DNA of 64,000 nucleotides from NCBI RefSeq assembly GCF_002019695.1, contig NZ_KV917376.1, positions 3,314,040-3,378,039 of the forward strand. The letters are read 5' to 3'. A program made the position numbers and the translations under genes. Shown here piece by piece: positions 26,200-38,489 of the stretch. Within the stretch, counting starts at the first letter, position 1. Each line of letters starts with the position of its first letter. The notes below the pieces were generated by a model. That model searched no databases. It saw nothing but the letters and a program-made list of their open reading frames with translations, and was not told the origin of the DNA. The stretch comes from Evansella clarkii. GTDB taxonomy: Bacteria; Bacillota; Bacilli; Bacillales; Salisediminibacteriaceae.

Positions 26200-27426
26200 A
26201 TGCCAATCAGAAAACTACTTGAACCTGATTATTTACAAAAATTTAAATGTCTTGGATCTGAATGTGAAGACACGTGCTGTCATGGTTGGAGAATAAACAT
26301 TGATCAGGAAACTTATTATAAACATGAAAATACAGATAACACTCTGCTCACCAAACATTTAAAAAAACTAGACGTCAAAAGTAATAAAGAAAACTATGCA
26401 GTATTAATGTTAGATAGTGAGTTATATTGCCCGCTTCTTAATAAAGATAAGTTATGTAAGGTTCATACGGAAATGGGAGAGGACTACCTGCCTAATATAT
26501 GCTCAACGTACCCTCGTCAAACTAATATTATCGATGGAGTGTACGAAAGATCTGCTACTTTATCCTGTCCTGAGGCAGCCCGTCTTATTTTACTTAACCC
26601 AGAGGGCATAACTTTTAATGAAGTGGTTGAACCAACTGATAATCGTCACCTAATTTCCATAAATATAAATCCAAGCAAAACTACTCCTAAACGTGGAGAA
26701 TTTGTTTACTTTAATGAATTACAACAATTTTCAATTAGTATAATAAAAAATAGAAGCTATTATCTATTTGACAGGTTATTAATATTAGGAATGTTTTTAA
26801 ATGAAATTCAGAGATTAATCGACGAACAAACTATTGATGAAATACCAAACTGTATAACTCATTTTAATTTATTGATAGATAACAGAGAAATTCTGAATAA
26901 AAAAAATAATGTGACGGTATCTGTTAAAAAACAAATGAAGATCAACAGGCATTTACTGGATATGAGAATATTCAGTGGTGTAAGAGACAGCAGATATTTG
27001 AATTGCTTGTTTGAAGGATTAAAAGGTCTGAAATATACTGGTTCTTTAATAAATGAACAAAGTTTAATGGAATATAATAAAGCATATCACCAATATTTCC
27101 TGCCTTTCTTATCTGAGCATGAATATATTTTTGAAAATTACTTAGTTAATTATATATTTAGAAATGTTTTTCCGTATCATATAACAAGAAATGTTTTTGA
27201 GGAATACATTGTTATGGTTATACATGTTTCCTTAATTAAATTTCAATCAATTGGATTAATGAATTACCATAAAGAAAGTTTTACCCACAATCATTTAATA
27301 ACTTTAATCCAAAGCTATTCAAGAAATGTTGAGCATGCACCCACAGAGATCAGTAGATTTTTAGATTATTTAAAGGAAAATAATTATACATCACTTAATA
27401 ATTTAGGGGTATTAATAAAGCATTGA
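26200..27426 (+). CDS. fliB: FliB-family (flagellin) lysine N-methylase
   Basis: This 408-aa protein belongs to the FliB family, which methylates surface lysines of flagellin in Salmonella and relatives. The N-terminal 130 residues hold the family's Cys-rich signature: FKCLGSECEDTCCHGW, LYCPLLNKDKLCKVH, DYLPNICSTYPR and TLSCPEAARL, a pattern compatible with metal or Fe-S binding. The remaining 270 residues are helical and AT-rich in DNA. No flagellin gene is in the window. It stands alone between the EPS locus and the lasso cluster, in the same direction as both. The family call is firm; the substrate is inferred. Confidence 0.85.
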   Translation: MPIRKLLEPDYLQKFKCLGSECEDTCCHGWRINIDQETYYKHENTDNTLLTKHLKKLDVKSNKENYAVLMLDSELYCPLLNKDKLCKVHTEMGEDYLPNICSTYPRQTNIIDGVYERSATLSCPEAARLILLNPEGITFNEVVEPTDNRHLISININPSKTTPKRGEFVYFNELQQFSISIIKNRSYYLFDRLLILGMFLNEIQRLIDEQTIDEIPNCITHFNLLIDNREILNKKNNVTVSVKKQMKINRHLLDMRIFSGVRDSRYLNCLFEGLKGLKYTGSLINEQSLMEYNKAYHQYFLPFLSEHEYIFENYLVNYIFRNVFPYHITRNVFEEYIVMVIHVSLIKFQSIGLMNYHKESFTHNHLITLIQSYSRNVEHAPTEISRFLDYLKENNYTSLNNLGVLIKH

Positions 27427-27548: not shown

Positions 27549-27732
27549 TAGCTAAAGGATAGTTCTTTATTACGAACACAAGAGCAATGACTGGAATGGT
27601 CTATAGGTATATATTATTTTTTTTGATCTTTGCATTCGTTATTTAGAACGGGGTTGAGAATCTTAAAAAATCATAATAATTCCGGTGGTATTGTTCTATT
27701 CATTTAACATTGTTGTTAACAGGAGGATTACT

Positions 27733-29682
27733 ATGAGCGCGATTGCCGGCCTAGTCCATTTTAATAATGAAGCAGTTTTACCTAAACAAGCGAGAGCTTT
27801 AATGGCGGGTTTTGAGCAATTTCCTGCCGATGACATTCAAACCTGGCAAATGCGCAACATATTTTTAGGCTGCCATGCTCAGTGGATTACTCCGGAATCA
27901 GTAGGGGAACAATTGCCATACTATGACTACAATAGAAAGTTAGCTATAACGTGTGACGCTATTATAGATAATAGAAAAGAGTTATTTGAAAAGCTGCATA
28001 TAAAAGATCCACTGATCAAAAGATCTATGCCAGACAGCCAGATTATTTTACTGGCTTATGATAAATGGGGGGAGCAATGTCCGAAATATCTAATTGGTGA
28101 CTTTTCCTTTATGATATGGGATCAAAACAACCAAAAGCTTTTTGGTGCCAGAGACTTCTCAGGAGCCAGAACGCTATACTTTTATAATGACCAAAGCCGC
28201 TTTATTTTTTCTACTATAATGGAGACCTTCTTTCGATTTCCTTACATAAAAAAGGAATTAAATGAAAGCTGGCTGGCGGAATTTATTTCAATTTCCGGAA
28301 TGGAAGAAGCTATAAATATGACTGAAACTGTCTATAAATCAATATACCAGGTGCCTCCGGGACACAGCATATCTGCAAAGAATGGAAATGTGAAGTTGGC
28401 CAGGTATATAAAGTTGGATGTTAATGAGACTATTAAATTCAAATCTGACGAAGAATATGAAGAAGCTTTCCGCTACGAATTAGATCAGGCTGTGTCAGAC
28501 AGGCTTAGAACACATGGAGGAGTGGGGGCTCAATTAAGCGGAGGCCTTGACTCGAGCTCTGTAGTTAGTATAGCTGCAAAGCAGTTACAAAAAGATTATA
28601 AGAAACTTTACACATACAGTTATGTACCGGAAGTAACATTTAATGACTGGACATCGAATTTTTATGTGCCTAATGAGTCGCCGTATATTAAAGAAACAGT
28701 AAATTTTGTTGGAAATATTAATGATAATTATCTTGATTTTGATGGGAGAAGCTCTTTGGACGAGATTGACCATTTCCTTGACATTATGGAAATGCCTTAT
28801 AAGTTCTTTAATAATTCTTTATGGCTGAAAGGAATAAATGAAACAGTAAGCCAGCAGGGAATAAAAATTTTATTAAATGGTGCCAGAGGAAATCATTCCA
28901 TTTCTTTCGGTTCGAAAAACCTTACGATTACCTACTACAGTGATTTATTAAAAAGGCTCCGTTGGATTGCTTTAAACAAAGAGTTAAACCTATTCTGTCA
29001 ACAACTTAATACTGGAAAACGAGTTATTCTTCCATTAGTAATGGAAAAAACATTTCCAATAATCTATTCCTTTTTTAATAAAGAGGAAACAGCTAACACA
29101 GAAACTAATTGGATGAAGTTAATAAACCCTGACCTTGCCAAAAATACACAGCTAGAAGAAAGATTAATGGAATATAATAGAGTTATTAATGATGAAACAT
29201 CAATAAGAAACAATCACTTCCAGCAGCCCTATACATGGAATAAAACAGGAACAGCAACTACCAAACTTTCATTACGGTATTCAACTTGGGATCGTGACCC
29301 TACAAATGATTTACGTTTAATAAAGTTTTGTCTTGCTGTACCTCAAGAGCAGTATGCTAAAGGAGGAATGGAACGAGCGTTAATAAGAAGAGCTATGAAA
29401 GGGTTGCTTCCGGATAAAGTAAGGTTAAATCAGCATAGCAGGGGTTTACAAGCTGCAGACGTGGTTCATCGATTGACACCAAAATGGCCCGCGTTTATTG
29501 AGGAAATAACAAATATGACTTCTGACCCGGTAACTTCTCATTATATAAATATGGACTATGTAAAGAATGCTATAGCTATGTTAGGTGACACTCCCAACCC
29601 CGAATACGTTTTTTATGACGAGTTTAAAGTTTTAACCCGCAGTCTTATCCTGCACAGGTTTCTTAAGAGACATACATCATGA
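27733..29682 (+). CDS. Lasso peptide cyclase (C protein, asparagine synthase-like)
   Basis: This 649-aa protein is an asparagine-synthetase homologue that, in lasso clusters, adenylates an Asp or Glu side chain and closes the macrolactam ring with the N-terminal amine of the core. It has an N-terminal glutaminase-like domain beginning MSAIAGLVHF, so the nucleophilic Cys2 of true glutaminases is absent, as expected for C proteins. The synthetase domain has the PP-loop LSGGLDSSSVVS near residue 270. ATG 27733 follows AGGAGGATT; longer upstream frames lack a ribosome site. The precursor gene starts 15 bp after the stop. Confidence 0.92.
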   Translation: MSAIAGLVHFNNEAVLPKQARALMAGFEQFPADDIQTWQMRNIFLGCHAQWITPESVGEQLPYYDYNRKLAITCDAIIDNRKELFEKLHIKDPLIKRSMPDSQIILLAYDKWGEQCPKYLIGDFSFMIWDQNNQKLFGARDFSGARTLYFYNDQSRFIFSTIMETFFRFPYIKKELNESWLAEFISISGMEEAINMTETVYKSIYQVPPGHSISAKNGNVKLARYIKLDVNETIKFKSDEEYEEAFRYELDQAVSDRLRTHGGVGAQLSGGLDSSSVVSIAAKQLQKDYKKLYTYSYVPEVTFNDWTSNFYVPNESPYIKETVNFVGNINDNYLDFDGRSSLDEIDHFLDIMEMPYKFFNNSLWLKGINETVSQQGIKILLNGARGNHSISFGSKNLTITYYSDLLKRLRWIALNKELNLFCQQLNTGKRVILPLVMEKTFPIIYSFFNKEETANTETNWMKLINPDLAKNTQLEERLMEYNRVINDETSIRNNHFQQPYTWNKTGTATTKLSLRYSTWDRDPTNDLRLIKFCLAVPQEQYAKGGMERALIRRAMKGLLPDKVRLNQHSRGLQAADVVHRLTPKWPAFIEEITNMTSDPVTSHYINMDYVKNAIAMLGDTPNPEYVFYDEFKVLTRSLILHRFLKRHTS

Positions 29683-29697: not shown

Positions 29698-29871
29698 ATG
29701 AAAAAAGTATGGAAACAACCAATCTTAGATTTATTAGATGTAAATAGAACTATGGGTGGAGCTGGTGATGCACAAGATGATAGCTATTGTACTAATGCAA
29801 ATTTTGACGGAAAAATTAATAAAGCGTGTGCAAATCCAGACCCAGGCCCAGGCCCAGGGCTAGGTAGTTAA
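29698..29871 (+). CDS. Paeninodin-class lasso peptide precursor (A)
   Basis: This 57-aa peptide starts at ATG 29698 with GGGGGTGA 5 bp upstream. The leader (residues 1-19) is MKKVWKQPILDLLDVNRTM. It has the W/Y-x-x-P plus Leu pattern read by B1 proteins and Thr at -2. The predicted core (residues 20-57) opens with GGAGDAQDD, so an 8- or 9-residue ring from Gly1 to Asp8 or Asp9 is possible; Asp9 matches paeninodin. Cys12 and Cys25 of the core could form a disulfide. The tail is Pro/Gly-rich (PDPGPGPG) and ends in Ser, the residue phosphorylated in paeninodin-type peptides. A 38-residue core is unusually long for this class. Confidence 0.9.
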   Translation: MKKVWKQPILDLLDVNRTMGGAGDAQDDSYCTNANFDGKINKACANPDPGPGPGLGS

Positions 29872-29887
29872 TTTTTAGGCATTTTTG

Positions 29888-29922
29888 ACCCTTATACCTA
29901 ACTTAAACAGTATAAGGGTTTT
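29888..29922 (+). terminator. Attenuator-type hairpin after the precursor gene
   Basis: A perfect 10-bp stem (ACCCTTATAC / GTATAAGGGT, 12-base loop) followed by TTT lies 16 bp after the precursor stop and before the kinase gene. Such partial terminators raise precursor mRNA above that of the tailoring genes by termination or by 3'-end protection. The T run is short, so read-through is expected. Confidence 0.75.
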
Positions 29923-29957: not shown

Positions 29958-30887
29958 ATGAATACTAGAGAATGTTTTTATTACTCTGCTTTTGGATTCA
30001 AGTTATTGAGTCCTATTAGACTGCCAGAGTTAACAGTAATTAACCAGTGTAATATAACACCTGATATTACCATCGTCTTTAATAACCTGCAGGAAACATG
30101 GGATTCACATACTAAGGATAATGATTATTTTTATATAGAAAAGGATTTTATATTAGTAAATATTCCAAAGGTAGGGATATTCTCAATCCACGGTGGAAAG
30201 GAAATTGTTGTTTCACCTTTTAAAGATGTACAGGAAGACCAGCTTCGCCTCTACATGTTAGGGACATGTATGGGAGCTGTATTGATGCAAAGGAGAATAC
30301 TCCCGTTGCACGGGAGCGCGATAGAAATTAATGGGAAGGCTTATGCTATTGTCGGAGAATCTGGAGCAGGCAAGTCTACTACTGCTTCCGCCTTATTGAA
30401 CAAAGGATACAAGCTTATTAGTGACGATGTAATTCCTGTGACTTTAAACGAAGAAAATATACCTGTTGTAACACCTGCATACCCCCAGCAAAAACTATGG
30501 CAGGAAAGCCTTGATAAATTTGGAATGGACTCCTCCAGCTACCGGCCTGTTGTTGACCGGGAAACAAAGTTTGCGATACCGGTACATAAACATTTTTCCA
30601 GTACCAGGCTGCCACTAGCAGGTGTTTTTGAATTAATAAAAACTAATAATGAGGAAGTTGAAATCAGGGAGATCCAGCAGCTGGAACGGTTTCATAGCTT
30701 GTACCTTCATACGTACCGTAATTTCTTTCTTAAGCCTGCCGGATTAATGGAATGGCATTTCAAAGTTTGTGCGGATATGGTAAATAAGCTGGATTTATAT
30801 CAAATACAGCGCCCAAGTTCGCGATTTACTACAGAGGAATTAACAGCACTTATACTATCATCGATAAATAAGGAGGTTGTTGTATGA
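29958..30887 (+). CDS. Lasso peptide tailoring kinase (HPr kinase-like, K)
   Basis: This 309-aa protein carries an HPr kinase/phosphorylase-type ATPase core with PLHGSAIEINGKAYAIVGES, Walker A GESGAGKST (residues 133-141), His118 just before it, and ISDDVIPV downstream. In paeninodin-type clusters such kinases phosphorylate the side chain of the C-terminal Ser of the precursor, and the precursor here does end in Ser. It lacks the N-terminal HPr-K domain of the carbon-catabolite enzyme. Its stop overlaps the B1 start (ATGA), so translation is coupled. Confidence 0.88.
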   Translation: MNTRECFYYSAFGFKLLSPIRLPELTVINQCNITPDITIVFNNLQETWDSHTKDNDYFYIEKDFILVNIPKVGIFSIHGGKEIVVSPFKDVQEDQLRLYMLGTCMGAVLMQRRILPLHGSAIEINGKAYAIVGESGAGKSTTASALLNKGYKLISDDVIPVTLNEENIPVVTPAYPQQKLWQESLDKFGMDSSSYRPVVDRETKFAIPVHKHFSSTRLPLAGVFELIKTNNEEVEIREIQQLERFHSLYLHTYRNFFLKPAGLMEWHFKVCADMVNKLDLYQIQRPSSRFTTEELTALILSSINKEVVV

Positions 30888-31177
30888 TTGGAAGTCAAAA
30901 TATTTATACAAATACACTGGTAAGTCAATTCCCAGGAAGCATTGTCAGTGACATGGACGGAGAAAAGGTAATGTTAAGTATTAGTAAAGGGAAATATTAT
31001 AACCTTGGTGAAATTGGAGGACGAATCTGGGAACTGATCGAACAGCCAATCTCTATTGAAGAAATTGTTATTAGACTGCTTGAAGAATATGACGTTAAAA
31101 AAACAGAATGTGAAGAACAAGTTATCAATTTTATCGATATGCTGAGGAAGGAAGAATTAGTTGAGTTAAAAAATTAA
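30884..31177 (+). CDS. Lasso peptide PqqD-like leader-binding protein (B1)
   Basis: This 97-aa protein is a stand-alone RiPP recognition element. It binds the precursor leader and brings it to the B2 protease. Typical PqqD features are the stretch MDGEKVMLSISKGKYYNL, the following GEIGGRIWELIEQPISIEEI and a C-terminal helix ending LRKEELVEL. RBS AAGGAGGTTG precedes ATG 30884. The split B1/B2 arrangement is the usual one in Firmicutes. Confidence 0.9.
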   Translation: MIGSQNIYTNTLVSQFPGSIVSDMDGEKVMLSISKGKYYNLGEIGGRIWELIEQPISIEEIVIRLLEEYDVKKTECEEQVINFIDMLRKEELVELKN

Positions 31178-31208: not shown

Positions 31209-31682
31209 ATGATTAACAAAGCCAGGTCTTTTTGGAGTTTAGATAGACAAGTGAAATCAATGCTATTTGAAGCATACGTTTATTTGGCCTGGGCCAGATT
31301 ATTAAAATTACTGCCTTTTTACAAAATTGCTCCTTCTCTCGGAGAGCACATGGAAGAAACAAACTATATACCGAAAGTAAATGAGCGTAAAACAATCTCA
31401 CAAGTTTCCCAAACAGTTCACATGATGAGCCGCTACACCTTCTGGGAAAGTGAGTGTCTTGTTAAGGCAATTGCCTCTCTGAAAATGCTTGAAAAACGAG
31501 GCATTGAAAGCACATTATATTTAGGAACCAGAAAGAGTGAGAATGGTGTATTCGCAGCACATGCATGGTTAAGAAGCGGCCCTTATTATATTACTGGTGC
31601 AGAAGGCATGGAGAAGTTCACGGTAGTTAGTAAATTTGCCAAAAGGCTTTCAGTCAAAAACGGAGGAGAAACATATGGATAA
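31209..31682 (+). CDS. Lasso peptide leader peptidase (B2, transglutaminase-like)
   Basis: This 157-aa protein is the transglutaminase-fold cysteine protease that cuts the leader after the residue following the conserved Thr. Cys83 in TFWESECLVKA and His118 in GVFAAHAWLRSGP are the expected catalytic pair, followed by FTVVSKF as in other B2 proteins. An N-terminal hydrophobic stretch (residues 20-38) may contact membrane or partners. It starts at ATG 31209 after AAAGGAAAAAG and overlaps the next gene by 8 bp. Confidence 0.9.
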   Translation: MINKARSFWSLDRQVKSMLFEAYVYLAWARLLKLLPFYKIAPSLGEHMEETNYIPKVNERKTISQVSQTVHMMSRYTFWESECLVKAIASLKMLEKRGIESTLYLGTRKSENGVFAAHAWLRSGPYYITGAEGMEKFTVVSKFAKRLSVKNGGETYG

Positions 31683-32838
31683 GGACGTTCTCAATTTGGA
31701 GCGGGTTCCAAAAGAGCTTAAGTTAATCCTGCAATTAATTAAGGGAGAAAAGGTTAGTCAAGGTACTTTTAAAGAAGTAAACTGGGAACGCTTTATTGAA
31801 CTTTCTGTCCATCACCGGCTGTATCCTGTTCTGTACACTATAACAAAGCAACTGCACTCATATATTCCTGAAACCGTTATAAATCAATTATTCCATTTAT
31901 ATCAAAGAAATACATTTAGTATGCTTCAGCTAACGGCTGAAATGGAGCAGGTTAGCAAATTGTTTAATAAACAAAACATACCTGTCATTTTTTTGAAAGG
32001 ACCAATGCTTGCTGACGAGCTGTATGGAGATATTTCAAAGCGAACGTGCAGCGACCTTGACTTTCTAATACCGATGGATGAGCTTGAAAAAGCAGAAGAT
32101 TTATTGGCTGAACATGGTTATGAAAAAAATGACTATATTAAAACCGTACTGAATGACTGGAAATGGAGACACCATCATGTTACGTATTTTCATCCACAGA
32201 AAGGAATAAAGCTGGAAGTTCATTGGCGGCTTCATCCGGGGCCTGGAAAGGAGCCTGTTTTCAGAGATTTGTGGGAGCGAAAATCTGCCTGTTCTTTAAC
32301 AAACTTTCCTGTCTATATGTTAGGAAGAGAGGATTTAATCTTATATTTATCTGCCCATGGTGCACGGCACGGCTGGTCGAGGCTCCGCTGGCTAATGGAT
32401 ATTCATCAGCTGTTAAGAGAGCAGAAAGAATTAACTAGTGTTATTAAACTGTCAAAGAGATATCAAATGTATCCTGTTTTAGGGCAGGCTATGGTTTTAT
32501 CTTCCACTTTATTGAACAGCAACCAGCCGGAAGGGATAAATGCCACTTTCGATAAACAGTCTCGTACACTGGCACAGAAAGCAGTGTATTATTTTGAAAA
32601 TATGGTCAATTTACATACGGACCCTGTACCAGCTGAAGTATCTGTATATCACGAAAGTTACCTCCTTACATTAATGCCGCTTCAGCAAAAACTTTTAATT
32701 TTAGCCAGTTTCTTTTTTCCATATCCAGAAGATGCGGAAACTTTGCCGCTGCCAAAATTTCTTCACTTTTTGTATTTCCCACTCCGCCCATTTATATGGG
32801 GATGGAGAAAATCGAGGAAGCAACATGCTGTATCCTAG
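31675..32838 (+). CDS. Nucleotidyltransferase-family protein of the lasso cluster
   Basis: This 387-aa protein matches the uncharacterised nucleotidyltransferase family (NTP_transf_5 type). VIFLKGPMLADELYGDISKRTCSDLDFLIP near residues 100-130 carries the Asp-x-Asp metal site, and LEVHWRLHPG gives the family's Glu-Val-His-Trp motif. Homologues recur in Firmicute lasso clusters that also have a kinase, but their role is unclear. It might attach a nucleotide to the peptide, regulate a cluster enzyme or act in self-protection. ATG 31675 is chosen for CGGAGGAG directly upstream. Confidence 0.82.
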   Translation: MDKDVLNLERVPKELKLILQLIKGEKVSQGTFKEVNWERFIELSVHHRLYPVLYTITKQLHSYIPETVINQLFHLYQRNTFSMLQLTAEMEQVSKLFNKQNIPVIFLKGPMLADELYGDISKRTCSDLDFLIPMDELEKAEDLLAEHGYEKNDYIKTVLNDWKWRHHHVTYFHPQKGIKLEVHWRLHPGPGKEPVFRDLWERKSACSLTNFPVYMLGREDLILYLSAHGARHGWSRLRWLMDIHQLLREQKELTSVIKLSKRYQMYPVLGQAMVLSSTLLNSNQPEGINATFDKQSRTLAQKAVYYFENMVNLHTDPVPAEVSVYHESYLLTLMPLQQKLLILASFFFPYPEDAETLPLPKFLHFLYFPLRPFIWGWRKSRKQHAVS

Positions 32839-32850
32839 GAGGAACCATCT

Positions 32851-34644
32851 ATGTTAAAGCCTGTTTTTTATTTTGTGAAACAAATACACGCATATGCCGG
32901 TAAAATACTGTATATTAACCTTTTTGCTATGATACTAATCAGTTTGCTCGACGGAATTGGCATTTTGCTTTTAATACCAATGATCAGCATGACTGGAATA
33001 GTAAATATCGATGCAGGGGGGACTCCCGTAGCTGGACTATTTGAATATTTACAAGGCATACCTGCCTCTATTGGACTGCCTGTAATCCTGGCTATTTTTG
33101 TTGTAATCAGCATTATACAGAACCTGCTTCAACGGCATATTACTATAAGGGAAACTAAAATACAGCATGGATTTTTCAGGCACATGAGGGTGAAAACATA
33201 TGAATCACTCCTTCACGCCGACTGGCGTTTTTATATCAAAAATAGAAAAACAGACTTAATTAATATTCTTACTTCTGAAATAGCTCGTGCCAGTGCAGGG
33301 ACACATTCATTTTTACAGTTTATGGCTTCACTAATATTTACATCAATACAGATTGCTATCGCGTTTTGGCTGTCACCGGTTATAACAGTATTTTTACTCT
33401 TAAGTGGACTTTTACTTATTATTTTTAACAGAAAATTTTTGAGACGGTCATTGGAACTTGGAGGCCGAAATTATGAGCTTGGAAGGAATTACCTTGGAGG
33501 CATAACAGATCAAATTAACGGTATAAAAGATATTAAGAGTAATACTCTGGAAGACTCGCGTTTGGACTGGTATCGCTCCATTACTAAAAAAATGGAACAC
33601 GAACAAGTAGAATATACAAAGTTAAAAACAAAATCTCAGCTCTATTATAAAATTGCTTCTGCAGTATTAATTGCTACTTTTATATTTATTTCATTTAGCA
33701 TGTTTCAAGCGCAGGCCGCACAATTAATGCTTATTATCCTGATTTTTTCAAGACTATGGCCAAGAGTAGCAGGTATCCAGGCTTCAATGGAACATATTGC
33801 AGCCATGCTGCCGGCTTTCAAAGCGGTTATAGCTATGCAGGAAGAAAGTAAGTCAGCTAAAGAGTTCGACCTTTCTGAAAAGAAAGATATTAAGCCGCTG
33901 CATGTAAAAAGAGACATCACCTGCTGGAATGTTTCATTTAAATATAAGAAAGAGTCTTATGCTTTGAAGGATATTAATATAACGCTTCCTGCAAACCAGA
34001 TGACTGCCGTTGTTGGAAAGTCCGGTGCAGGGAAAAGTACGCTGATTGATTTGTTAATGGGGCTAAATAAACCTGCAAAGGGGCAGGTGCTCATTGATGG
34101 TGTGCCTCTTTCCAGTGAGAATTTGATTTCTTTAAGAAGGGCGATAAGTTATGTTCCACAGGATCCTTTCTTATTTAACGATAGTATCAGGGAGAACCTG
34201 CTGCTTGTGAAGCCTGATGCAACAGAGGAAGAGATTTGGGAAGCATTGGAGTTTTCTTCAGCCGCTGAGTTTGTCAGGAAACTGCCTGAGAACCTTGATT
34301 CCTTAATCGGTGACCGGGGGATAAAGCTATCCGGCGGTGAAAGACAACGGTTAGTGCTGGCAAGGGCAATTCTAAGAAAACCTTCGATTCTAGTTTTAGA
34401 CGAAGCAACGAGCTCTCTTGATACGGAAAATGAGGCTAAGATCCAGGAAGCCCTGGAAAGATTAAAAGGGAAGATGACGATCATTGTTATTGCACACAGG
34501 CTGTCTACAATCAGGAATGCAGACCAGGTAATCGTACTGGATGAAGGATCGGTAATTCAGAGAGGTGAGTTTGGCCAGCTTGCAAATGATAAAAGAAGTG
34601 TTTTTGGCTCATTGCTCAGAAGACAGATGGAAGCCACTTATTGA
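32851..34644 (+). CDS. Lasso peptide ABC exporter (D)
   Basis: This 597-aa half-transporter has an exporter-type six-helix domain (about 1-320) and an ATPase domain with Walker A VGKSGAGKST, Q-loop YVPQDPFLF, signature LSGGERQRL and Walker B ILVLDEATSSLD. As the last gene of the lasso operon it should export the mature peptide and give immunity to it. It lacks an N-terminal C39 peptidase domain, as expected where leader removal is done by B2. TAGGAGGAACC precedes ATG 32851. Confidence 0.9.
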   Translation: MLKPVFYFVKQIHAYAGKILYINLFAMILISLLDGIGILLLIPMISMTGIVNIDAGGTPVAGLFEYLQGIPASIGLPVILAIFVVISIIQNLLQRHITIRETKIQHGFFRHMRVKTYESLLHADWRFYIKNRKTDLINILTSEIARASAGTHSFLQFMASLIFTSIQIAIAFWLSPVITVFLLLSGLLLIIFNRKFLRRSLELGGRNYELGRNYLGGITDQINGIKDIKSNTLEDSRLDWYRSITKKMEHEQVEYTKLKTKSQLYYKIASAVLIATFIFISFSMFQAQAAQLMLIILIFSRLWPRVAGIQASMEHIAAMLPAFKAVIAMQEESKSAKEFDLSEKKDIKPLHVKRDITCWNVSFKYKKESYALKDINITLPANQMTAVVGKSGAGKSTLIDLLMGLNKPAKGQVLIDGVPLSSENLISLRRAISYVPQDPFLFNDSIRENLLLVKPDATEEEIWEALEFSSAAEFVRKLPENLDSLIGDRGIKLSGGERQRLVLARAILRKPSILVLDEATSSLDTENEAKIQEALERLKGKMTIIVIAHRLSTIRNADQVIVLDEGSVIQRGEFGQLANDKRSVFGSLLRRQMEATY

Positions 34645-34725: not shown

Positions 34726-35748
34726 ATGCAACAAAGCAGGGAGAGGACAAAATTGACCATAAATAGGGGAAAGTTCATCCTGTTACTGTTTGTGTGTTTT
34801 CTATTTATATTGGCAGTATACACGTTTTGGGACAATAACCGCATCAAAGTAGTAAGTGAGGACATCTTCATTGAAGGCCTTCCGGCAGAGTTTGAAGGTT
34901 ATAAGATTTTACAGATAACAGACTTACATGATAAGGAGTTTGGGAAGGATCAGCGCCGGCTTTTAAACGTCGTTAACAGCCTGGAATACGACGCTGTTGT
35001 CTTTACTGGAGATATGCTGGATGAGTACAGTGACTCTCCTGATTATGAGAATTTCTATGCATTGATAGAGGGGATGGACAACAAAGATGTAGCGTTGTAT
35101 GTATCAGGAAATTCTGATACAGCCAATTATGTAATAAACGAGAATAGGGTGCCGGAAAAACACGAGTTCATTCAGGGGATGGAGGAGAGAGGGGTGGAGC
35201 TTCTGGAATCTGTCTACACTGTGGACAAAGGGCCATCACGCCTACATTTTACAGACTTCGAATTATCCTATATGCAGGAAGAGCTTTCCGTGGTGGAAGG
35301 CAGATATCAGCTTAGAGAAGTATACGAAAAGTACGATAAGGTTTATTTAAAACAGTTAATGGAGGAGTTTTCGCACATCGAATCAAAAAGTGATTCTGAT
35401 ATATTAATCGGGCTGACACATTATCCTGTGGTAGATTCGTTAATTGACAGATTAGATGAAGACCCTCAGTATAATTTGATGGATTATGACCTTATTTTAG
35501 CCGGCCATTATCACGGTGGGCAGTTCCGGTTTCCTTTTTACGGAGCGGTTTTTATCCCTGAACCGATGTACGAAAATTCCGGGTTGTTTCCGCCACAAGA
35601 CAAAGTGAAAGGACTATGGGAGCACCGGGGAGTTCAGCAATATGTGAGCACCGGCCTGGGCAGCAGTGGCCCAATACCTTTATTACGTTTCAGGTTCTTA
35701 AATACTCCGGAAATAAATTTTCTTACTTTAAGAAATAAAGAGGATTAG
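34726..35748 (+). CDS. Membrane-anchored metallophosphoesterase (YaeI/YkuE type)
   Basis: This 340-aa protein has one N-terminal membrane anchor (residues 16-37) and a calcineurin-like metallophosphoesterase domain outside. Metal motifs are ILQITDLHDKEFG (D-x-H), VVFTGDMLDEY (GD), SGNSDT (GN-type) and LILAGHYHGGQFRFP (GHxHGG). The His that often follows GN is replaced, giving GNSD. Relatives hydrolyse lipid or nucleotide phosphates; the substrate here is unknown. It stands as a single gene between terminators. Confidence 0.85.
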   Translation: MQQSRERTKLTINRGKFILLLFVCFLFILAVYTFWDNNRIKVVSEDIFIEGLPAEFEGYKILQITDLHDKEFGKDQRRLLNVVNSLEYDAVVFTGDMLDEYSDSPDYENFYALIEGMDNKDVALYVSGNSDTANYVINENRVPEKHEFIQGMEERGVELLESVYTVDKGPSRLHFTDFELSYMQEELSVVEGRYQLREVYEKYDKVYLKQLMEEFSHIESKSDSDILIGLTHYPVVDSLIDRLDEDPQYNLMDYDLILAGHYHGGQFRFPFYGAVFIPEPMYENSGLFPPQDKVKGLWEHRGVQQYVSTGLGSSGPIPLLRFRFLNTPEINFLTLRNKED

Positions 35749-37007: not shown

Positions 37008-38489
37008 TTATCTGCGGATGCCGTTGAGCGCACGGTTTGCGTTTACAATTCCGTGGCCGAATATTGGATCATAACCGCGTTTTCCAGCGTCTACAGCTGT
37101 TTGCTGAAGAGCGTTTTGTACTTGTCTTGGGTTAGGCTTGTTGCCAGTTTCAGCATATACTTTAGCGATGTATGCTGCAGCTGCACCTGAAACCTGTGGT
37201 GCTGCCATGGAAGTTCCGCCTTTCCAGCCATAGCCTTTGCCGAATAATGCTTCAGCTTCAGGACCGCGTCCGCCGTACTCAAGATAAGTAGGGACAGCAC
37301 TTAGGACAAGGTATTTGCTTCCTTCAGTTCTTGTTGGTCCAAGGTCTCCACCAGGAGCGCCAAGGTCAATTGCGCCGTTTCCGTAGTTAGAGTAAAATGC
37401 GAGACGGTCTTCTGTTCCAAATCCGCCTCCAGTAGCTGAGACAGTGATAGCGCCAGGCATTTGTGCTGGTACATAAACTGTAGCGCCTTTAGCTTCCCAT
37501 CCGTCGTTTCTTCCAGCGTTAAGCTGGTCTGTAACTTTAGCAGGGTTGCTTAAATCCATTTCAGAGTTACCTGCAGAAGCAACAATTGTAACTCCTTTGT
37601 TGATCGCATAACGAATTGCTCTGTTATATGCTACATAATCTGCAGCACTGTTTCCGCCGCGTACTCTTTCGCCTGTTTCAGGATCAGTAAAGAACCACTG
37701 CCCAAGAAGACGGGTACCGCCAAGGCTCATGTTGATTACGTCAGCTCCGTCATCAGCAGCTGCGATAATCGCATCTGTAATCCAGATTTGCTGTGCTCCG
37801 CCAGTTGCACCGAATACACGGTAAGAACGAAGAGTAGTACCAGGAGCAACACCCTTCATGCTTCCGTCAGCACCGATAGTTCCGGCAACGTGAGTTCCGT
37901 GGCTGTTGAAGTCCCAGGAGTCTTCAGTACCAGGAACGAAAGTACGGGAACCTTCTTCGTCAACAACGTGAGCGAGGTCAGGGTGATCAAAATCGAAACC
38001 ACTGTCGATTACTGCTACAACTACATCTTCGCGCGCCTCACGATATAGATCGTGGCTTGCACCGTTGTCAGTTACCATTTCAATGTCCCACTGATAACCA
38101 GACTCCCAGATGTTTGTTACTGGTGGTTCATTAGTAACTTCAGCTTCTTCAGCAACCTCCAGTTCAGGAAGATCGAGAGTTACTTCAAGTGATGGTCCAA
38201 CCGATAAAACTTCGCGGTTGTTCATCATTTCCTTAATAAATGATGCTGGTTCATCCGTAGTTACTTCGATAGTTCCGATTTCAGGAACCGAGTATGTAAC
38301 TTCTCCTCCGGCTTGTGCAACCAGGTCTTCAGCATTTTGCGGAATGCTATCCGAACGGAAAACTACTAACAGTTGTTCTTCGTCGTTCTGCACATCTGCA
38401 TTTGAAGCGGCAGCTCCAGATACGAAGGTTGACATTACGAGTAGAACTGCAAGCATAAACGTCATAAAGATTTTTGCTTTTCCTCTCAT
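37008..38489 (-). CDS. Secreted subtilisin-like serine protease
   Basis: This 493-aa preproprotein has a Sec signal peptide (residues 1-28, basic start then a long hydrophobic core ending SGAAA), an inhibitor-type propeptide to about residue 125, and an S8 catalytic domain. The triad is Asp162 (VVAVIDSGFDFDHPDL), His197 (SHGTHVAGTIG) and Ser427 (GGTSMAAPQVSG), with the oxyanion Asn308 in ASAGNSE. The protein is acidic, fitting a salt or alkaline habitat. AAGGAG lies 8 bp upstream of the start, and a 15-bp palindrome stands between promoter region and gene. It is monocistronic. Confidence 0.93.
   Translation of the reverse strand: MRGKAKIFMTFMLAVLLVMSTFVSGAAASNADVQNDEEQLLVVFRSDSIPQNAEDLVAQAGGEVTYSVPEIGTIEVTTDEPASFIKEMMNNREVLSVGPSLEVTLDLPELEVAEEAEVTNEPPVTNIWESGYQWDIEMVTDNGASHDLYREAREDVVVAVIDSGFDFDHPDLAHVVDEEGSRTFVPGTEDSWDFNSHGTHVAGTIGADGSMKGVAPGTTLRSYRVFGATGGAQQIWITDAIIAAADDGADVINMSLGGTRLLGQWFFTDPETGERVRGGNSAADYVAYNRAIRYAINKGVTIVASAGNSEMDLSNPAKVTDQLNAGRNDGWEAKGATVYVPAQMPGAITVSATGGGFGTEDRLAFYSNYGNGAIDLGAPGGDLGPTRTEGSKYLVLSAVPTYLEYGGRGPEAEALFGKGYGWKGGTSMAAPQVSGAAAAYIAKVYAETGNKPNPRQVQNALQQTAVDAGKRGYDPIFGHGIVNANRALNGIRR

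Follow-up and report, generated by a model that had tools for sequence, protein, structure and literature searches.

The gene at positions 29698–29871 (+) of a 64,000-nucleotide stretch of Evansella clarkii DNA, hereafter the window (3.31–3.38 Mb of contig 1), encodes a lasso peptide precursor, A, and lies in a full C-A-K-B1-B2-N-D cluster whose enzyme genes all share its strand. The product is read here, with a probability of about 0.7, as a paeninodin-type lasso peptide, class IV-like and with a long tail, made by a cyclase of its own lineage, and its long core with two Cys belongs to a widespread and apparently undescribed Bacillales subfamily. A reading made from the letters of the DNA (the sequence-only reading) had already placed a precursor and a complete cluster here, which was borne out by the open reading frame (ORF) and by matches to NF033524 and the enzyme families; the cyclase lineage, the second cyclase-precursor pair of relatives, the FliB-like methylase and the downstream phosphoesterase go beyond it.

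Translation of the ORF, which follows a ribosome-binding site that reads as good on inspection, gives MKKVWKQPILDLLDVNRTM / GGAGDAQDDSYCTNANFDGKINKACANPDPGPGPGLGS. The leader of 19 residues (29698–29754) carries the motif WKQP and ends in Thr-Met, in agreement with the WxxP and Thr-X end of the paeninodin family, of which the WxxP leader is a mark (PMC13381572), and is followed by a core of 38 residues (29755–29868, stop 29869–29871), GGAGDAQDDSYC...C...GLGS. Against NCBIfam NF033524 (paeninodin-family lasso peptide) the precursor scores 40.9 bits (cut-off 27), one match to it is found in the whole 5.48-Mb genome, and its last residue, Ser38, fits the C-terminal Ser that is the kinase target in the family, its phosphorylation being predicted. 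The Thr-Met end, the core length, Cys12, Cys25 and the Pro-Gly run ending in Ser are all as the sequence-only reading described them. Both Cys are C-terminal of Asp9 (codon 29779–29781, +), the predicted macrolactam acceptor of a Gly1-Asp9 ring, i.e. outside the ring, Cys12 being three residues past Asp9. The predicted disulfide loop, from Cys12 (29788–29790) to Cys25 (29827–29829), spans 29788–29829 (+) and includes Lys20 and Lys23 in the sequence DGKINKAC. The segment after Cys25 has 13 residues and is encoded by a CCAGGC hexamer repeat specifying a Pro-Gly spacer (29836–29858, +; Tandem Repeats Finder, 3.8 copies, 94% matches), and its length may therefore change by slippage.

The two-Cys subfamily and its cyclases

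When searching 397 genomes of the order, a paeninodin-family precursor above the cut-off was found in 90. The loci studied are those of these 90 genomes, those of family relatives retrieved by the window precursor, and 35 named loci collected by the two-Cys core pattern (for example in Salipaludibacillus, Metabacillus, Lederbergia, Halobacillus and Neobacillus, some species being repeated). Gene order was established for 149 stretches by combining a leader profile with BLAST comparisons to the enzymes of the window, and merging of duplicates gave 161 unique C-precursor pairs, 157 of them with a full-length C; the four C fragments dropped belong to L078 (one), L141 (two) and L128 (one), and six C matches with no precursor behind them were left out of the counts. 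Cores with at least two Cys are termed two-Cys, and the window itself stands outside the 97 cyclase-bearing sample loci. In L078, L141 and L128 the reading frame of C is broken into two or three pieces, which may reflect cluster decay or errors of assembly.

Two-Cys cores account for 54 of the 157 pairs and 52 of them are distinct. Each of these 52 has Asp9 and a C-terminal Ser, none has a third Cys, and they are 31–47 residues long (median 35). The 100 other distinct cores have 19–34 residues (median 24), two Cys in no case and a final Ser in 99. A Gly1-Asp8 ring had been offered beside Gly1-Asp9; with Asp9 invariant and Asp at position 8 in 3 of the 52 cores, the Asp8 ring was rejected and the Asp9 ring retained. 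The description of the core as extremely long holds against the characterised lasso peptides, the longest tail named in a 2026 review being that of pandonodin (33 residues with an 18-residue tail, PMC13352647), but not within the subfamily, in which 19 of the 52 cores have at least 38 residues; the figure of 10–15 residues given for the tails of known lasso peptides had overlooked pandonodin.

The usual two-Cys core resembles NGPGNANADCFDVSDGKSETHDGRSNASC plus a short end, and the window core is a variant whose nearest relative by alignment score is that of L113 (GGDGEAVSDSYCTSSHPNIDPDGKINKACVHPDLLGGS; score 92, next 63). Between the Cys most members are rich in Asp/Glu, His and Gly (often ETHDG), and behind the second Cys there are 1–18 residues, Gly/Pro-rich in some members, with LGS, GS and DS as the commonest ends. 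The rigid exocyclic tail proposed earlier is supported as to a long exocyclic part but is better read as a spacer of variable length than as rigid. A frameshift or a removed follower peptide, the earlier terms for its refutation, was rejected, as the terminal Ser and the Cys pair are kept across relatives, and the idea of a long-tailed lasso able to form a disulfide gains support from the Cys pair behind the ring, Asp9 and the conserved C-terminal Ser. Since this Ser is kept at the very end whatever the core length, K probably meets the core at its full length. A separate observation concerns the cores lacking two Cys, of which 17 of 100 have no Asp/Glu at positions 7–9 by the leader boundary applied (L091, L111, L064 and others, with ASTVxGPYTDEAYVPG, SNPHSG and similar sequences); ring size or leader end may differ there from paeninodin.

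Two-Cys precursors lie directly behind a C gene in 70 of 72 cases (duplicates included), the exceptions being two short two-Cys precursor-like ORFs of another kind in L110 (18 aa) and L126 (16 aa), which are outside the 54. A two-Cys pair occurs in 34 of the 97 cyclase-bearing sample loci, or in 27 of 90 without the seven loci found via the window precursor. A further pair, whose core lacks two Cys, accompanies it in 27 of the 34 loci (22 of 27 when those seven are set aside), and 25 of the 27 double-pair loci have the order C1-A1-C2-A2-K-B1-B2-N-D. Salipaludibacillus neizhouensis (L161) is an example of a relative with both pairs. The two-Cys pair is alone in 7 of 34, the same state as in the window, where the leader profile finds a single precursor and thus no remnant of a C1-A1 pair; genome-wide searches turned up a single precursor match, seven asparagine-synthase-like matches of which one is a lasso-type C, and a single NTP_transf_5 protein.

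The lasso cyclase gene C is located at 27733–29682 (+), with an ATG at 27733 behind AGGAGG (a longer ORF starts with GTG at 27685), and its product exceeds the Pfam Asn_synthase cut-off (PF00733, 80.2 bits, cut-off 21). Phylogenies of the 157 cyclases paired with a precursor behind them revealed one branch that separates the 54 two-Cys cyclases from the 103 others with a FastTree support of 97. The same split was obtained with IQ-TREE on thinned rows (15 against 34, SH-aLRT 99) and, when the long-branched L053 was omitted from this last tree only, with bootstrap/SH-aLRT values of 100/99 (14 against 34), the bootstrap not having settled. With two asparagine synthetases of the window genome as remote outgroup the two-Cys cyclases form a clade (support 98).

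The alignment of the 157 cyclases further showed a three-residue insertion, residues 395–397 of the window C (28915–28923, +), in 54/54 two-Cys cyclases and 0/103 others. Gly262, Lys378, His388 and Lys504 are also typical of the two-Cys cyclases, each in 93–100% of them and in at most 3% of the others. The insertion comes after a stretch that hhalign aligns to the SGE..DE.FGG-type motif of asparagine synthetase, a position that suggests it may shape the acceptor side of the active site. In the PDB, a sequence search with C at E 1e-5 found three asparagine synthetases and one hydroxyamidotransferase, four matches in all and no lasso cyclase among them; the displayed alignments do not extend over the insertion.

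Proposed biosynthesis and alternative readings

Gene content, family membership, conservation within the subfamily, the cyclase lineage with its insertion, and the lineage and position of FliB are results of the analysis; disulfide, threading, the spacer role and methylation are predictions. The roles proposed for the enzymes are carried over from characterised relatives, in which B1 and B2 take off the leader, C closes the ring and D exports the product (PMC9266682, PMC8498205), PadeK modifies the C-terminal Ser, and PsmN is needed for hexoses on the phosphate of that Ser, with a host enzyme not excluded (PMC9266682). In the window, B1 would bind the WxxP leader, K would phosphorylate the C-terminal Ser of the precursor, N would elaborate the Ser phosphate, B2 would cleave after Thr-Met, C, from the lineage specialised for two-Cys cores, would join Gly1 to Asp9, and D would export the product. 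A Cys12-Cys25 disulfide would then form in the tail outside the cell and lock the threaded part, taking over the role of bulky plug residues; class IV disulfides are said to form conceivably without an enzyme, the clusters having no common extra gene (PMC9266682). Because Cys12 is only three residues past Asp9, a disulfide closed after threading would mechanically link two rings. The Gly/Pro stretch would serve as a spacer keeping the modified Ser off the disulfide-closed head, and a FliB-type methylase encoded upstream of C probably N-methylates Lys20 and/or Lys23 in this strain.

The boldest form of this proposal, to which a small chance is given, is a doubly locked lasso in which the tail threads the Gly1-Asp9 ring and a second ring, Cys12-Cys25, interlocks with it, Lys is N-methylated by a FliB-type [4Fe-4S] enzyme recruited from flagella, and the Ser at the end of the spacer bears a phosphate-linked sugar and may couple to surface polysaccharide from the adjacent locus; in most relatives a second, short lasso would be co-produced through two dedicated cyclases sharing the leader peptidase, the kinase and the exporter.

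The long core could alternatively be trimmed after export, as the sequence-only reading also envisaged, so that the lasso itself would stop close to Cys25, with a disposable Gly/Pro stretch behind it. A stretch of 1–18 residues that is of low complexity in some members is what a dispensable linker would look like, and an ORF at 37008–38489 on the other strand, 1.3 kb past the phosphoesterase gene, appears subtilisin-like from its motifs. However, all 52 distinct two-Cys cores end in Ser, mostly as LGS, GS or DS, whatever the spacer length, as a kinase acting on the full-length end requires, and B2 was the only protease recognised among the nine window proteins examined by family search; trimming is given a low probability. 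Similarly low is the probability given to another purpose for the Cys pair, be it coordination of a metal, dimerisation via disulfides between two molecules, or linkage to some other thiol. The Asp/Glu-, His- and Gly-rich segment between the Cys of most members could bind metal, and TNANFDGKIN in the window presumably resembles the spacing of a calcium loop, but the cores have exactly two Cys and never a third, and the characterised class IV lassos have one tail-tail disulfide (PMC9266682, PMC13352647). Lowest in probability is a product resembling the linear polyphosphorylated peptides (LPP), either branched cyclic and unthreaded or a linear phosphopeptide, since the locus holds a macrolactam cyclase and a B2 of its own and the leader has the WxxP of paeninodin, not the YxxP of LPP; no SipW-like peptidase was named among the nine window proteins, no separate search for one having been made. 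On the WKQP leader and the presence of C and B2, membership of LPP was rejected.

Several observations weigh against the preferred reading of a long-tailed paeninodin-type lasso with its own cyclase lineage. The window contains C, K, B1 and B2 in one cluster, as is usual for the paeninodin family, but its C scores 391.5 bits against NF033535, under the curated cut-off of 525, a shortfall that proved informative, though it can be aligned with the other C proteins of the sample. The outgroup of the cyclase tree sits on very long branches and the FastTree midpoint root would nest the other cyclases within the two-Cys set, so that it is unsure which cyclase state came first and in which direction the change went. 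The 54 two-Cys pairs are not a random sample, the named loci having come from the core pattern and seven sample loci from the window precursor. Among the 52 distinct cores the first Cys is at position 10 in 46, 12 in five and 8 in one, and the Cys-Cys gap ranges over 12–30 residues (18 in 40), so that the disulfide need not have one fixed geometry. Nor did the family searches of the nine window proteins reveal an oxidoreductase. FliB was found in 3 of the 149 stretches, and Lys pairs (at least two Lys between the Cys) occur also in the cores of L048, L109 and L094, loci where no FliB was found. Finally, we know of no product for the window peptide or any other two-Cys member.

A FliB-type methylase upstream of the cyclase gene

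The gene at 26200–27426 (+), directly upstream of C with a gap of 0.3 kb, encodes a FliB-type lysine N-methylase (NF038110, 317.7 bits, cut-off 85) and is a candidate lasso tailoring gene. The motif CX4CX3CC, which binds the cluster in FliB (PMC8598068), is present as C17, C22, C26 and C27, each in 13 of 14 aligned rows. FliB is found as one copy each in 14 of the 397 genomes, the window genome included, and in three of these, the window genome, G135 and G233, it lies directly upstream of a lasso C, the copies of G135 and G233 being the closest relatives found of the window FliB. These three come from three different families (f1, f20 and f28) and form one branch with SH-aLRT 100 both among the 14 and among 42 sequences, the latter including homologues from a search with 35 matches, 30 of which were given as loci and examined. 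None of the 39 other FliB has a lasso C beside it (28 of them viewed with about 1.5 kb per side). G233 is the genome of L113, and of the 54 two-Cys rows only those of the window and L113 contain DGKINKAC.

The gene could be an ordinary flagellin methylase that adjoins the cluster by chance. This would accord with its being the only FliB of the window genome and with the other FliB of the order sample, 10 of 11 of which adjoin ORFs read from their sequence as flagellin, fliD or fliS (L255 shows none). Chance adjacency is nevertheless doubtful, although less improbable than the alternatives weighed above: all three copies are directly upstream of C in three families and form their own branch, a search by sequence motif detected no flagellin-like ORF near them, and a rough estimate (a target of about 6 kb in 4.5 Mb) puts three of 14 by chance at around one in a million. 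Position and separate branch suggest a substrate other than flagellin, and as the three-member branch is seen only beside lasso cyclases, methyl-lysine on the core, at Lys20 and/or Lys23, is the probable outcome. The core at L130:4990-5118 (AGPLAKGKPDWTEEGGDES), from the last of the three loci in which FliB directly precedes C, has no Asp/Glu at positions 7–9 despite the presence of C.

Other cluster genes, known systems and implications

Downstream of the precursor gene a stem-loop (29887–29920, +) whose right arm runs into TTTT has a calculated RNA folding energy of -14.6 kcal/mol (z -2.95; 1 of 200 shuffles as good). It may act as a leaky terminator or mark a site of processing, and may limit transcription beyond the precursor gene; the terminator scan found none, the 12-base loop and the four T lying outside its limits. 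The promoter scan gave 7 sites against 9.5 expected, and nothing is claimed from it. Next follow K (29958–30887, +), HPr-kinase-like with predicted phosphorylation of the C-terminal Ser (PF07475, 38.7 bits, cut-off 33.3), B1 (30884–31177, +), a leader-binding RRE of the PqqD-like kind (NF033536, 135.2 bits, cut-off 80), the leader peptidase B2 (31209–31682, +; NF033537, 107.6 bits, cut-off 33), the nucleotidyltransferase-like N (31636–32838, +, first ATG 31675; PF14907, 208.9 bits, cut-off 31.2) and the ABC exporter D (32851–34644, +; PF00005, 118.8 bits; PF00664, 42.2 bits). Residues H120, K141, D158 and D159 of K are invariant in the 134 K ORFs of the loci, 35 of which are from the named loci with some species counted twice.

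A metallophosphoesterase with a hydrophobic N-terminal stretch (34726–35748, +; PF00149, 42.3 bits) is a probable further member of the cluster. Counting the window, such a gene is found at most 1.5 kb downstream of D in 22 of the 70 loci with enough room, namely in 15 of 28 two-Cys loci against 7 of 42 others, and homologues are found in none of 40 control stretches of 13 kb placed arbitrarily in the same genomes. The consulted passages on lasso clusters do not mention it. On the other side, a locus for cell-surface polysaccharide (311–25901, i.e. 0.3–25.9 kb; EpsG, sugar transferase, glycosyltransferases, CDP-glycerol glycerophosphotransferase and dTDP-sugar genes) ends just ahead of the FliB-lasso segment. 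Homologues of its genes lie near the lasso genes in 44 of the 97 sample loci and in 0 of the 40 controls, and because the share is similar with and without a two-Cys pair (18/34 and 26/63), the link, if real, concerns paeninodin-type clusters generally and not the two-Cys kind. LPP clusters inside capsule loci have also been reported (Nat Commun, PMC13381572).

Besides the lasso precursors, 22 matches were seen in which a precursor with a WxxP leader and a Pro/Gly-rich or acidic core adjoins a protein of about 200 residues (L073, L137, L080, L129, L070, L088, L091, L098, L107, L131, L102, L114, L076, L099, L086, L110, L116, L117, L106, L126 and L125, with L186 repeating L098). The protein follows directly behind the precursor in 21 of the 22, in L125 the precursor being on its other side, 15 of the 22 cores start with KGW, KFF or KFH, and 14 of the 22 stretches are without a cyclase. 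In L098 (and L186), L110, L116 and L126 these precursors are placed between N and D inside lasso clusters, and L110 and L126 carry the additional short two-Cys precursor-like ORF beside them. Two of three such proteins tested gave GNAT/FeeM matches below the cut-off and the third no match. The precursors are a candidate family of acylated linear peptides borrowing the lasso leader; no match to this family was found in the window genome.

LP2006 and the felipeptins have other leaders and enzyme sets than the window and shorter peptides; the title of the felipeptin paper reportedly refers to synergy, in outline comparable to the C1-A1/C2-A2 pairs. Both are of class IV and have one disulfide entirely within the tail, as predicted for the window peptide (PMC9266682). 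Pandonodin, also class IV, combines a very long tail with one tail-tail disulfide (PMC13352647); it is proteobacterial, and a review gives no common extra genes beyond A-D for class IV clusters (PMC9266682), whereas the window has a split RRE and peptidase, a kinase, a nucleotidyltransferase and a longer core. With paeninodin and pseudomycoidin the window has in common the leader with WxxP and Thr-Met, the C-K-B1-B2-N-D genes, the Asp9 ring and the C-terminal Ser (PMC9266682, PMC8498205), but it differs in its core of 38 residues (the AGPG cores of the sample have 22–27), the two Cys, the Gly/Pro spacer, the separate cyclase lineage with its insertion and FliB upstream. LPP shares an RRE, an HprK-like kinase, an NTP transferase, an MsbA-like exporter and nearby polysaccharide loci, but lacks a cyclase and has a SipW-like peptidase and a YxxP leader where the window has C, B2 and WKQP (PMC13381572). 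The FliB flagellin lysine N-methylases share the NF038110 match and CX4CX3CC with the window gene, which differs in its place upstream of a lasso cyclase and in its separate branch. In the open-access literature, subscription papers being mostly outside the scope, searches turned up no account of a paeninodin subfamily with two Cys, of its sequence words, of clusters with two cyclases or of a FliB gene among lasso genes; the subfamily thus seems undescribed, this being weak evidence of absence.

The subfamily is common, with a two-Cys pair in about a third of the cyclase-bearing sample loci. Tailoring of lasso peptides by a methylase of the FliB type would be new to the class. If the proposed reading is true, the paeninodin-type lasso cyclases would fall into two lineages, for short cores and for long two-Cys cores, told apart by a small insertion beside the active site, and the determinants of core length and shape in lasso cyclases would become testable by swaps inside one operon that carries both enzymes.
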